From: Antedon mediterranea
Lineage: Eukaryota; Echinodermata; Crinoidea; Comatulida; Antedonidae
Reading direction: 5' to 3'
DNA: 64,000 nt
NCBI RefSeq assembly: GCF_964355755.1
Contig: NC_092671.1
Location: 16,897,501 to 16,961,500, forward strand
Every line of letters begins with the position of its first letter. The stretch's first letter is position 1. Positions 2,816 through 9,137 of this stretch are shown one piece after another. The notes beneath the pieces are model-generated. The model made no database searches. It had not been told where the DNA came from and saw nothing but the letters and a program-made list of their open reading frames with translations. The translations under genes were made by a program, and so were the position numbers.

Positions 2816-2864
2816 CGATAGTTTTTTCTGAGATGAACATTCATTTTATCATCATTTAGTCACA

Positions 2865-3734
2865 ATGAAGGTGTGGGTAGGATTATTCTACATACTGTTT
2901 CTTATCGTCAACGGGATTCAGTCCTGTAAAGAGAGATGCGACACAAGTTTGAACGTCAATCTTTCTGGTACGGATGACTCACAATGCGCATACGTGTTTT
3001 CGATTCCCGCTAAAGTTAATGGAAAATGTCCTCCATTAAAAGAGGCCGTAAAACAACTCTGCGATAAATACGATTCGGAAGACACACTGGCCCAACACCT
3101 GATTGGATACTACCCGTTTGACAGGGATTCCCTGGACTACTCTGGAAATGAACGAAACGGTGCCATAACCGGAGGATTGTCGTACGACAGCGGAATAAAA
3201 GGCAAAGCTGGTAAATTCGATGGCAGCACTAAAGTTGTTGTAGACGACTTTCGTAATTTCAACTTCGGATCAAAGTTTTCTGTCAGCGCATGGTTCCAAC
3301 GAACAACCACAACCAACTACCAAGGTATTGTCAACAATGGGTATTACAGTACCGGCGGCTGGGAGATTCGAATGGGCAGAGAATTTTCTGGACAAATGCT
3401 TGGTGGAGGAATCATAACCAGTGATAGTTCCACAGCGTGGGATTATATCAATCTTAGAGCCGCCCCGAATACATGGCATCATGTTGTTATGACATATGAT
3501 GGACAATTACTTTCGTTCTATCTTGATGGTGAAAAACAAGTTGGTGATGAAGACTGCTGTAGTGGAACCATTTTGGTGAAGAACACTCCGGTAACGATTG
3601 GACAAGCAGGCGTAGGTATGAACCTGGAGTACTTTGTTGGTCTTATTGATGAAGTGAAGCTCTTCGATATATCTTTAACGGCTGACCAAGTGGATGCTCT
3701 CTACAAGGACAATAACATTGGTTTACCTCAATAG
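2865..3734 (+). CDS. secreted LamG/concanavalin-A-like domain protein, intronless
   Basis: A single open frame of 289 residues. Residues 1-20 form a hydrophobic signal peptide ending before a Cys-rich stretch, so secretion is predicted. From about residue 80 to 285 the protein reads as a LamG-like jelly-roll domain: the entry motif GYYPFDRDSLDYSGN, then SVSAWFQ, WHHVVMTYDG, SFYLDGE and a closing GLIDEVKLFDISLT. Such domains usually bind glycans or matrix ligands; the ligand here is unknown. No intron is needed, and the frame is intact despite lying inside a large inverted repeat. Whether it is a host gene duplicated with its flanks or cargo of a foldback-type mobile element cannot be settled here. 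The start is the only sensible ATG for the signal peptide. Confidence 0.85.
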   Translation: MKVWVGLFYILFLIVNGIQSCKERCDTSLNVNLSGTDDSQCAYVFSIPAKVNGKCPPLKEAVKQLCDKYDSEDTLAQHLIGYYPFDRDSLDYSGNERNGAITGGLSYDSGIKGKAGKFDGSTKVVVDDFRNFNFGSKFSVSAWFQRTTTTNYQGIVNNGYYSTGGWEIRMGREFSGQMLGGGIITSDSSTAWDYINLRAAPNTWHHVVMTYDGQLLSFYLDGEKQVGDEDCCSGTILVKNTPVTIGQAGVGMNLEYFVGLIDEVKLFDISLTADQVDALYKDNNIGLPQ

Positions 3735-4997: not shown

Positions 4998-5395
4998 AAA
5001 GCGCATGATACGGTTATGCCGATGTGCCATATAAAATCGTTTGAGAATGCAATGTCGACGTAACCATATAAAATCGCATGCGACACAAGGCCGACGTACC
5101 ATATAAAATCGCATGCGACACAACGCCGACGTACTATATAAAATCGCATGCGACACAAGTCCGACGTACTATATAAAATCGCATGCGACACAAGTCCGAC
5201 GTACTATATAAAATCGCATGCGACACAAGTCCGACGTCCCATTATAAAATCGCATGCGACACAACGCCGACGTACCATACAAAATCGCATGCGACACCAG
5301 GCCGACATACTATATAAAATCGGATGCGACACAACGCCGACGTACTATATAAAATCGCATGCGACACAAGGTCGATGTACCATTATATGCGACGC
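4998..5395. repeat. 35-bp TATA-containing tandem array upstream of the TRIM gene
   Basis: About 11 units of 35 bp. Each full unit contains CCGACGTAC, then ATATAAAATC, then the palindrome CGCATGCG and GACACAA. Unit starts at 5091, 5126, 5161 and 5196 show the exact period. The left units (about 4998-5090) are degenerate. The array ends about 230 bp before the TRIM start codon. Apparent reading frames inside it are by-products of the repeat. Confidence 0.88.
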
Positions 5396-5625: not shown

Positions 5626-7407
5626 ATGGCTTCCGACCGTTCAGACGAATATATGCGACTCATCGTGTGTCAGCTCTGTAAAGATGTTTACAACGTGCCG
5701 AAACTTTTAAATTGTCTTCATAGCTTTTGTGAACAATGCTTGCCATTAACGGATACCAATGAGGTGATTTGTAATATTTGTAATCTGTCTACACCTGTCC
5801 CGGATGGAACTGGAAAACTTAAAACAAACAATTTTCTCTTAAAGTTGTCTGGAAAGATTGCTAGTTTTAGCAAATCAATTTTAAGCGATAACCCAATAGT
5901 TTGCACGAGTTGCGACAACGAAGAAGCATTCTTCTGCTGTAATGAGTGCGATGACTTTTTCTGCGACGACTGCAGACACGCCCATTCTAAGGTCAGATTG
6001 ACGCGTAGTCATTTCATCTTTAGCGTCAGTGATATAAAGAACGGCCTGTTTGATATAAGGCATGTTGCAAGAACACTGTTAGAAGAGTGTCCTAGACATA
6101 CTGGTGAGGAAATCCGGTTCTTCTGCAAGACGTGTGGTTATCTCATATGCCGTGACTGCTTATTATGCGATAACCATCTCAAAGGAGATCACGAGTGCAT
6201 CTCTGTGAGGGATGTAGTGAGTTCTTCTAAAAAGGAACTCGATAAGGCGCTGGCGACTGTTCACCAGAAGAAAAAAGAATTAGTAACAGCTTCTGAGGCA
6301 ATAGAGAGTCTATTAGATGATATCGAAAGTGCTGTTTCTGAAGAAGAAAGTAGAGTAAATTTAAGTGCAATACAACGTATTAGAACCATCGAAGAGGAGC
6401 GAGAACAGAAGTTGAAGTTCATTAGATCGAAGAAAAACGACAATGTGAAAGATCTTTCTACTATTCTTGAACAAATCGACATTGGTTTAAGAAATATTAC
6501 AGACATTACGTCCTTTTCGAGCAACCTTGTTGATTTTGGTCAAGCTACTGATATTCTAGTTTTTAAGAATCGAGTTATTACACATGCTAATACGATAGCT
6601 TCAGTAGTAAGTGTACCAACGATTCCTTCTTATGTCAATAACATCACTGTGCCAGAGGTTAAACAGGAGTCGTTTGAAAAGATAGATAAAGCGACACAGA
6701 TCACATCGATAGTGGAAGCAAAAGTAATTGGAGAGGTTCAATCTATTGGAACTTCGACAGATGATTTAGAGGTGATTTGTGAGTTTGAAGAAAATACGAA
6801 AAACGAAACGCCAGACACAAACGGTGATGACGAAGATGATGAAGTTACTATTATCGAGGACAACATGTGCGACACGATACGACAATTTGTATTTGATATC
6901 ATAACTAAAACATTTATCGAACACAAAGAGTATTCTGCTGATGTCATTTCGTCAATCAAACGTGTTCTGGAAAATAAGTTTGGACCTTTTTGGCATATAT
7001 TTACCGGCAAAGCATTCGCTTGGAACATAGCACCGTTGAATTTAGATTACGCAGTACTTGAAGCAGGGGACCAACGTGTCACTGTGTTCTGTTCCGGTTC
7101 TGTCAACGTTCCGAGGCAAACACTGGATCAAAAGGCTATTATCGTTGAAACAGACATGGCTGAGACTATGAAACGAGACGTAGTGCGCTTCTCGAAGCAG
7201 GCCATGTCCAGGTATCCGAACCGTTCCGACATTGCCAAAAACGTTGCTGACGTTTTTCGTAGAAAATATGGAGGAAAGTGGCAGTGTTTTGTTTTGGGTA
7301 AAGGCTCAATGGTTGGGTTCTCTAAATTACTAACTGCTACAAATAGTTGTATATATATTACAATTGGTCCAGAGGTTGTGCTTCTTCTAAAGCTGTCCAG
7401 TAGATGA
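5626..7407 (+). CDS. TRIM-type RING E3 ligase with two C-terminal LC8 (dynein light chain)-like domains
   Basis: An intronless gene of 593 residues. The RING finger is C3HC4 (C15, C18, C30, H32, C35, C38, C49, C52). B-box 1 starts at C93-C96 and B-box 2 runs about 155-195 (C155, H158, C167, C170, C175, C178, H184, H189). A Glu/Lys-rich coiled coil follows (about 200-300), then an acidic linker. Instead of SPRY, NHL or filamin, the tail holds two copies of a DYNLL/LC8-like fold: a divergent one at about 405-493 and a clear one at about 502-593, with ETDMAETM, a KYGGKWQCFV-type core and a terminal VVLLLKL strand. RING TRIMs are ubiquitin ligases. LC8 dimers bind short linear motifs and dynein intermediate chain, so adaptor-driven substrate choice or dynein coupling is a reasonable inference. 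AATAAA at about 7559 may serve as poly(A) signal. Confidence 0.9.
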   Translation: MASDRSDEYMRLIVCQLCKDVYNVPKLLNCLHSFCEQCLPLTDTNEVICNICNLSTPVPDGTGKLKTNNFLLKLSGKIASFSKSILSDNPIVCTSCDNEEAFFCCNECDDFFCDDCRHAHSKVRLTRSHFIFSVSDIKNGLFDIRHVARTLLEECPRHTGEEIRFFCKTCGYLICRDCLLCDNHLKGDHECISVRDVVSSSKKELDKALATVHQKKKELVTASEAIESLLDDIESAVSEEESRVNLSAIQRIRTIEEEREQKLKFIRSKKNDNVKDLSTILEQIDIGLRNITDITSFSSNLVDFGQATDILVFKNRVITHANTIASVVSVPTIPSYVNNITVPEVKQESFEKIDKATQITSIVEAKVIGEVQSIGTSTDDLEVICEFEENTKNETPDTNGDDEDDEVTIIEDNMCDTIRQFVFDIITKTFIEHKEYSADVISSIKRVLENKFGPFWHIFTGKAFAWNIAPLNLDYAVLEAGDQRVTVFCSGSVNVPRQTLDQKAIIVETDMAETMKRDVVRFSKQAMSRYPNRSDIAKNVADVFRRKYGGKWQCFVLGKGSMVGFSKLLTATNSCIYITIGPEVVLLLKLSSR

Positions 7408-9137
7408 AGAGACAACTGTATCATGAATAACCAATTGCATTTTGTTTTAAAGCAAGCCTGCAGAAAAACATAATGGGAAGGTTGTGGGATTAAAGTAGGA
7501 TTAGAAATAGGGGCAGAAAATCCTGTGAAACATTTCTTAATCTAATCACAACTTTACCAATAAACAATATTGTTATATATATATTTAATATTAAATTATT
7601 CTTATTATATACATATACATTGTACAGTATACATCAGATAAAATAACACATAAAATAATCAAACCAAATTCAATGTCTTTGGTGTTTACAAGTGCTAGAA
7701 ATATGTCAATATGCGTACAAAATAATTTGTTTCAGGTCATACTAATCTTTGCCCAGTAGGACCCTGCAGGGTTTCATCATACAGTACATCCTAAAATTAT
7801 ATTTAAGGTTATTTTAATATTTTATACATTTTTAAATAAAAAATAGTTAATTTAAGTCAAAATACTGATTAGATTTATTCCGAAAAACTGAAGACCGCCT
7901 TCTGTGATGAGTGATGTTTTGTGGGGTTGAAGCTGACGATTGATGCATTTAGAATGAAAAGTTTAACAATTACTAATTTCAACTAGTTTCTGGAAATATA
8001 AATATATATATAAGTTTAATTTACCACTAAAGCATGTTAATAATATATACTTGAAATCATTTTATATCATAAAATCAGGCGATACTGGGTCTACCGGACG
8101 AAGATTAATATGATTGTTTGTTTTTCGCATACACCTGGCATACCGTCAAAGTTACTCCATCCATGTGTCATACGTCAGTATTGTCCTGCTTCAGACACAA
8201 AAGCATGGTAGTAATATTAAATTTTTAAATCAATCATCTTTCTTGCTATAGTCTCTATAAAGCTGCATATATGACGAAATTGATTATTAAGGCAAAAATG
8301 TGCATTTTAAAAATACAAAGCAGTGGTTTCATTTCTATGTTTAGAAAACATAAATCTTCACGCTTGGTTGAACGGCTCTAATCAATCATAAAAGTCATTC
8401 ATTGATACGAATCTATTGGCAGACAAAAAGCTCTTAGCCAACCAATATGCCTTTTCACAAAGAAATATCCATGTGTAACAACCTTTACAAGGCACACACA
8501 CTAGATAAAGTAGAAGCCTCATTAGGGACCCACAAAGTGTTCCCTTAATAGGGGTGTCCAAAATGTGGAGTTCAACTATATTGTTTAAAGTTGTTATCTC
8601 TTAAATTAAATGTATATATAAATAACAAAAAATAATTAAGTACTATTTATTACTATTTACACATTTCAATGATTTTTTAGCGATTATTTCACAACTAAAG
8701 ATGTCTAAAATATTGATGTGATTTTCTATAGAATTCGTTAATATTGCAAGTCAAATAACGCACAAGTCTAACTTCATATGAAGCGCACTCTCGGGTATTC
8801 ACAATGTTGTACATGTCGCACCATTGTAAATACCCTCGAGTGCGAGTGCGCTCCACTAACGCACTCCGACTTCTGCATTATTGGTATATTATCAGAATCA
8901 CTGTGGTATCGATACATCGTTTCCATTTGAATCACTTTTGACTACTGTTTTTCCATGCTAGTCACGTTAATCGGTGAAAGTAAAATTGTTTCAACTTTCA
9001 TCGATTACACAATGATTGAATGACATATTTCCAAAATTGCTTTACAAATTTGTACATAAATTATCAAAATGGACAAAATGAAAGCATGAATTTCTTTTTT
9101 TTTGGTCACAAGCTTCTAAAAGTTGTCTACAAATTTC
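7408..9137. other. 3' UTR of the TRIM gene and intergenic region
   Basis: No gene is seen. The stretch contains a candidate AATAAA at about 7559-7564 and TA-rich runs. A degenerate GGGACCCACAAAGTGTTCCC...TAATAGGGGTGTCC motif at about 8525-8562 belongs to a dispersed family. An inverted pair lies at about 8780-8860: GCGCACTCTCGGGTATTCAC versus TAAATACCCTCGAGTGCG. Confidence 0.6.
8770..8885. repeat. small inverted repeat, related to the 12.7-13.2 kb array
   Basis: Arms GCGCACTCTCGGGTATTCAC and GTAAATACCCTCGAGTGCG face each other across a short loop. The core GCGCACTCGAGGGTATTTAC is the same as in each unit of the tandem array at 12750-13205. Confidence 0.6.

Follow-up and report, generated by a model that had tools for sequence, protein, structure and literature searches.

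What kind of reader does a TRIM protein carry when the familiar C-terminal domains are missing? The question is raised by a single-exon gene in a 64,000-nucleotide stretch of the crinoid Antedon mediterranea genome (hereafter, the window). A preliminary description had proposed a RING, two B-boxes and a coiled coil, followed not by SPRY, NHL or filamin but by two LC8 (dynein light chain) modules. In window coordinates, the gene and its surroundings read as follows:

5626..7407, forward strand: single-exon TRIM–LC8 gene, 593 amino acids (open reading frame and Pfam domains)
5668..5781, forward strand: RING, residues 15–52 (Pfam and reading of the C3HC4 ligands)
5899..6012, forward strand: B-box 1, residues about 92–129 (ANCHR-like_BBOX stretch under its cut-off; zf-B_box has two stretches)
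6085..6207, forward strand: B-box 2, residues 154–194 (zf-B_box)
6208..6570, forward strand: coiled-coil region, residues about 195–315 (homology to a TRIM3 chain)
6571..6837, forward strand: linker between domains, residues 316–404, acidic at its end (sequence reading)
6685..6705, forward strand: DKATQIT, residues 354–360, LC8-type motif in the linker (pattern [DS]K.[TVI]Q[TVI])
6844..7080, forward strand: LC8-1, residues 407–485, divergent (Dynein_light, 39.6 bits, E = 2.0e-7)
7132..7389, forward strand: LC8-2, residues 503–588, closer to DYNLL (Dynein_light, 50.8 bits, E = 6.0e-11)
7559..7564, forward strand: AATAAA, possible polyadenylation signal 152 nt past the stop codon

The 593-codon frame contains neither a stop nor an intron, and its ATG lies in the context AAAATGG. 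All eight C3HC4 ligands of the RING are present (C15, C18, C30, H32, C35, C38, C49 and C52), and Pfam zf-RING_UBOX covers residues 15–43 with an E value of 2.6e-5 and 24.6 bits, missing its cut-off of 25.2 by 0.6 bits. The proline of the CPxC motif and the arginine after the last cysteine have a role in RING E3 activity; both are present in the relatives on C9 described below and missing from the window RING, which may therefore be a weak E3. Two stretches match zf-B_box (32.4 bits; cut-off 24.1). In a sequence search of the PDB, residues 154–315, which span B-box 2 and the coiled-coil region, matched a TRIM3 chain (8amr) at E = 1.5e-18; we take the part of 8amr beyond the B-box to be the coiled coil of TRIM3, and it is by this homology that the coiled coil of the window protein is assigned. 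Pfam lists eight families for the window protein up to an E value of 1, and none of them is a C-terminal SPRY, NHL, filamin, Bromo/PHD, MATH, ARF or FN3 domain. Elsewhere in the window, a tandem array (35-bp unit, 10.4 copies) occupies positions 5018–5383, about 240 bp upstream of the gene, and a single-exon frame at 2832–3731 has a signal-like start and an apparent LamG/concanavalin-type domain.

The tail was identified with the Pfam family Dynein_light (PF01221), which matches the entire window protein in two stretches (83.2 bits, E = 1.7e-23). Scored singly in a profile search of the genome, both halves exceed the curated cut-off of 29.1 bits. LC8-2 also matched DYNLL chains in the PDB by sequence (best 1pwk, E = 8.8e-11) and is 36–37% identical to the DYNLL of the same genome. 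An AlphaFold2 single-sequence model of the tail was of low confidence (mean pLDDT 49.7); used as a Foldseek query, it gave a best E value of 2.7e-6 among the matches listed, and all 50 of the listed PDB matches were titled LC8/dynein light chains or dynein and axoneme complexes. LC8-1 modelled alone (mean pLDDT 55.1) returned 50 listed matches with titles of the same kinds, the best at 7.6e-3 and none at or below 0.001. A search of viral contigs for LC8 relatives that could deepen the alignment for folding confirmed none. Thus, the architecture put forward in the preliminary description holds for both parts of the protein, RING, B-boxes and coiled coil on one side and a tandem of one divergent and one more DYNLL-like LC8 on the other. 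The Dynein_light match, whose absence it had named as refuting, is significant in both halves, and the LC8 bounds that it gave (405–493 and 502–593) agree with those from Pfam within 10 residues. We regard the TRIM–LC8 fusion gene as virtually certain to be real.

The same arrangement recurs in the genome. Dynein_light led to four further sites on C7 and C9, each within a frame of 214–231 residues that has a RING/B-box/coiled-coil frame directly 5' of it. Altogether, a tandem-LC8 exon follows a TRIM exon at six loci, three on C7 and three on C9. The intron that would be spliced out lies between the coiled-coil part and the LC8 exon and is GT–AG and phase 1 in six of six cases (for C9b, the phase was read in the frame adjoining the junction; counted from its ATG, a frameshift makes it phase 2). 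Four of the predicted joined proteins are intact (C7a, 498 aa; C7c, 498 aa; C9a, 519 aa; C9c, 522 aa), and all four have a RING, a B-box and two Dynein_light stretches in Pfam, with whole-protein E values of 5.9e-11 to 3.9e-12. The other two are broken by frameshifts, C7b in the tail and C9b in the TRIM exon; with two of the seven tandem loci affected, the family also decays. That assembly or gene modelling had placed a separate LC8 gene beside a TRIM gene is scarcely credible: this reading, like that of a chance match, was rejected because the window frame is a single uninterrupted ORF and the parallel loci on C7 and C9 repeat both order and intron phase. TRIM–LC8 is therefore a gene family in this genome, beyond the single gene first described, and the window gene is its intronless member.

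Genome searches with the C9, C7 and window tails found no further tandem-LC8 exons at E values up to 1. At the same threshold the three kinds of tail did not match one another, so their common origin is indicated solely by the shared Dynein_light match. At E values up to 10, Dynein_light yields 17 candidates genome-wide. Eleven are in TRIM genes (two in the window, three on C7, five on C9 and one on C4) and five are frames of free LC8 genes (two on C3, one on C6 and two on C1); the two C1 frames are probably exons of one gene, which we take to resemble DNAL4. The last is a weak frame with an internal stop. Tctex-1 gave 12 matches in the genome, none of them at TRIM–LC8 coordinates. COX1 and the GFP family gave no match in the assembly, a negative that carries no weight for GFP, as the controls of that search were silent too.

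On C4, three TRIM exons are followed by a phase-1 intron and an exon with a probable single, decayed LC8, each below the Pfam cut-off:

L044, 4062–4613: C4 tail, probable single decayed LC8
L045, 3–602: C4 tail, probable single decayed LC8
L045, 4977–5615: C4 tail, probable single decayed LC8

Dynein_light E values for the three were 0.0039, 0.0079 and 0.013. By hhalign, a C4 tail reached a probability of 44% against free LC8 and 14% against C9 LC8-1, and a C4 tail query reached the LC8 exon of C7a at E = 0.074; further profile matches of these tails come from models built from the family itself and run against a tiny database. In two of the three tails, acidic low-complexity stretches follow the decayed LC8, and a fourth C4 copy has an internal stop at C4:29777711. 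These tails are probably LC8, which is not proven. Between two of the C4 TRIM genes lies a 475-codon open frame (L045, 1908–3332), most of which is a tandem repeat with a unit of about 19 residues. TRIM copies are numerous and arranged in arrays across the genome; at C7:25516111-25594372 (G000), equal-scoring TRIM matches are paired on opposite strands and recur about every 15–17 kb, reflecting either young tandem amplification or assembly duplication.

How did LC8 come to stand behind these TRIMs? One ancestral TRIM–LC8 gene was rejected for the TRIM halves by AU tests: placing the LC8-bearing RBCC halves in one clade gave p-AU values of 0.00046 with 27 rows and 0.00063 with 41 rows, the latter hand-picked from matches of the window, C7 and C9 queries. 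The protein trees were built without the frameshifted C7b and C9b, the second membrane-type TRIM of L010 (5465–4566) and the C4 TRIMs except L041. A clade of C7 and C9 was rejected as well (p-AU 0.00011 and 0.00023), and one of C7 and the window gene more weakly (0.015, 41-row tree), whereas window and C9 together were compatible with the data (0.33, and 0.46 with 41 rows). L041, which comes from a C4 gene with a probable LC8 and was counted as belonging to no group, joined C9 with support 89/71 in the 41-row tree. Long branches in that tree (window, L019, L037 and L041) make the placement of the window gene unsure. LC8 tails are thus carried by TRIM halves of at least two lineages, through either repeated capture of the tail or transfer of a single tail exon from one TRIM lineage to another. 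The phase-1 boundary common to the intron-bearing copies fits both, and a single fusion with later swapping of TRIM halves would equally lead to rejection of one RBCC clade. In the tree of LC8 halves, the ten fused halves fall on one side of a branch with support of only 60/80, and a clade of N-terminal halves gave a p-AU of 0.16; the halves are short and divergent, which puts the history of the tail beyond their tree.

The RBCC parts of the C7 genes belong to a fully supported group of 11 rows; of the other nine, seven represent proteins whose end, as judged by eye, is hydrophobic and membrane-like. TRIM-like proteins with such an end are the following:

L010, 9006–7981 and 5465–4566, both reverse strand (the second absent from the RBCC tree)
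L033, 475–2460 and 7184–8425
L034, 2827–1439, reverse strand
L035, 3194–1569 and 5845–5024, both reverse strand
L036, 377–1741

These hydrophobic-end proteins are RBCC kin of the C7 TRIM–LC8 genes, and two of them sit within the C7 LC8 cluster itself.

Both exons are under purifying selection among the paralogues. Between close paralogues, dN/dS was 0.24–0.30 for the TRIM exon (six pairs, C9b contributing part of its exon) and 0.27–0.45 for the LC8 exon (four pairs); the ratios of pairs with C7a are rough, as their dS exceeds 1 (1.10, 1.11 and 1.38). With values well below 1, the TRIM part and the tail both appear to be held by selection. This, and the five intact long frames including that of the window, make it very improbable that we are looking at decaying or neutral genes, a functionless side branch of a large TRIM expansion, which the two frameshifted loci and the abundance of TRIM copies in arrays might otherwise suggest. 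The C9 tail is less constrained (0.35–0.45) than the C9 TRIM exon (0.24–0.29). In the three C9 tails, pN/pS was highest in windows over the alpha1–alpha2 loop of LC8-1 (1.15) and the beta2–beta3 region of LC8-2 (1.03), the same two windows in which pS was lowest (0.24 and 0.22). Positive selection on the tail was considered and rejected on the pairwise C9 ratios, the windows near 1 coming from just three sequences and having low pS. In free LC8, the glutamine of the ligand is described as capping helix 2, and the ligand as adding a strand at the dimer-edge sheet (PMC3078936). The two C9 regions with high pN/pS border the peptide in free LC8, which, given the lowest pS there, is only a hint.

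Does the tail, then, bind what LC8 binds? Partner peptides and the dynein intermediate chain are bound by LC8 in the same way (cf. the title of PDB 2p2t). The grooves that hold partner peptides are reported to lie at the dimer edges and to be lined by Phe62, Tyr65, Phe73, Tyr75 and Tyr77 (PMC3078936). In the three free LC8 sequences of this genome that were compared, the groove strand reads GSYVTHET in two and GFEITHET in one; its final THET is present in all three and in none of the ten TRIM-fused domains compared, a count that leaves out the C4 tails and the two frameshifted loci, C7b and C9b. In the window LC8-2, Tyr75 is kept, whereas Phe73 aligns with Cys and Tyr77 with Thr, single positions that nearby indels make unsure. 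As none of the fused copies in the comparison keeps the groove strand, the tail probably has a ligand other than the standard TQT motif, and the earlier proposals that the tail reads TQT-type motifs or couples the ligase to dynein are, for the same loss, probably wrong. We think that the tail keeps the LC8 fold and most likely its pairing, without the TQT specificity, as judged from sequence; a groove lost in this way is as consistent with a tail that has stopped binding ligands as with one that has changed its specificity.

A canonical LC8 reader of TQT-type motifs, or a dynein dock for the ligase, is therefore unlikely. The likeness of LC8-2 to the DYNLL of the genome speaks for it, but the absence of THET from the ten fused halves weakens it, as do four extra residues in the window LC8-2 between the positions of Trp54 and Gly79. 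Also in its favour is the DKATQIT motif of the protein's own linker, which could dock on the tail or bring in free DYNLL. Measured against the LC8-binding consensus given in PMC3078936, DKATQIT is close, but it has Ile at +1 and Thr, rather than an acidic residue, at +2. Shuffling the linker produced the pattern [DS]K.[TVI]Q[TVI] in 0.28% of cases, and shuffling the whole protein in 0.86%, for a motif that was noticed first and tested afterwards; it is found in none of the four intact paralogues and in none of 36 control TRIM rows, of which the RBCC parts were used. Many TQT-anchored peptides are reported to fail at LC8 binding (PMC6607443). If it binds LC8, DKATQIT could latch onto its own tail or recruit free DYNLL.

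A tail that only oligomerises or scaffolds is doubtful, if a serious contender. The LC8 pairs would then be a second dimerisation module beside the coiled coil, with no substrate bound. TRIM coiled coils already dimerise, which argues against such a role, as do the two pN/pS peaks in the C9 tails, which fall where pS is lowest. Nevertheless, the groove strand is lost while all five intact proteins keep the LC8 tryptophan (Trp54 in DYNLL) in each of their two halves, and LC8 is thought to act as a dimerisation engine (PMC3078936).

The reading that we favour, with confidence evenly balanced, is an E3 ligase whose LC8-fold tail reads substrates through a changed surface. The protein would be a RING E3 ubiquitin ligase of the TRIM type, with the LC8-fold tandem standing in for the usual C-terminal reader (SPRY, NHL or filamin). 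Its two LC8 folds would most likely pair, within one chain or between chains across the TRIM dimer, into an LC8-like dimer, and the pair would offer a binding surface to a protein or short peptide. The RING would then ubiquitinate whatever the tail binds. Such a tail would work like LC8 and read something other than the standard TQT motif.

What might it read? Pathogens that exploit LC8 are a speculative answer. Direct binding of HIV-1 to the dynein light chains LC8 and Tctex1 in vitro has been suggested in a preprint, as cited by a review (PMC11359181); LC8 would on that suggestion be a plausible bait, the virus target here being hypothetical. A tentative and rather unlikely extension holds that LC8 was repeatedly set behind TRIMs as viral bait, with its surface diversified between copies and DKATQIT in the window protein acting as a self-latch released by a stronger ligand.

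As far as the searched literature goes, TRIM–tandem LC8 is not a known TRIM class: our search, which covered the titles and abstract openings listed, with few subscription papers and with proteome databases outside its scope, found none, in line with the preliminary description. A tandem-LC8 tail would add such a class, and the C-terminal domain of a TRIM is said often to determine its interaction specificity (PMC3137616). LC8 is credited with more than 100 partners (PMC6607443). Its presence behind TRIMs of at least one other lineage in the same genome suggests that a hub protein of cell transport was turned into a target-recognition module, and it raises a testable question: can the LC8 groove, freed from its partners, evolve new specificities?

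Among known systems, the TRIM–NHL proteins (the TRIM2/TRIM3/TRIM56 group) are closest in the RBCC part. TRIM3 is the best solved match to the window RBCC, and within the genome an NHL-repeat protein on C4 matches it best (L009, 28–32% identity); an NHL propeller stands there where the tandem LC8 stands here. TRIMs with a C-terminal membrane anchor share the 11-row group with the C7 RBCCs and have a hydrophobic end in place of the LC8 exon. Free LC8 (DYNLL1/2) resembles both halves of the window tail through the Dynein_light match, whereas the tail is a covalent tandem on an E3 ligase and has lost the groove strand. The tegumental-allergen-like (TAL/CaBP) proteins of parasitic flatworms are also covalent fusions with a dynein-light-chain-like part (PMC3317908, PMC12347358, PMC5431922) but, going by their abstracts, have EF-hands and no RING.

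The nearest functional precedent, by analogy, is TRIM5–cyclophilin A (TRIMCyp), in which a small host protein fold has likewise taken the place of the TRIM reader. Retroviral capsids bind cyclophilin A; the fold here is LC8, in tandem, with a diverged groove and no known virus target. TRIM5–CypA is reported to have arisen independently in two primate lineages (PMC2279257), and zebrafish ftr52 is described as a TRIM with a RanBD/cyclophilin tail (PMC3137616). With its tail shared by two or more TRIM lineages of a single genome, TRIM–LC8 would be a further natural case, beside TRIM–cyclophilin, of a hub protein becoming a recognition module.
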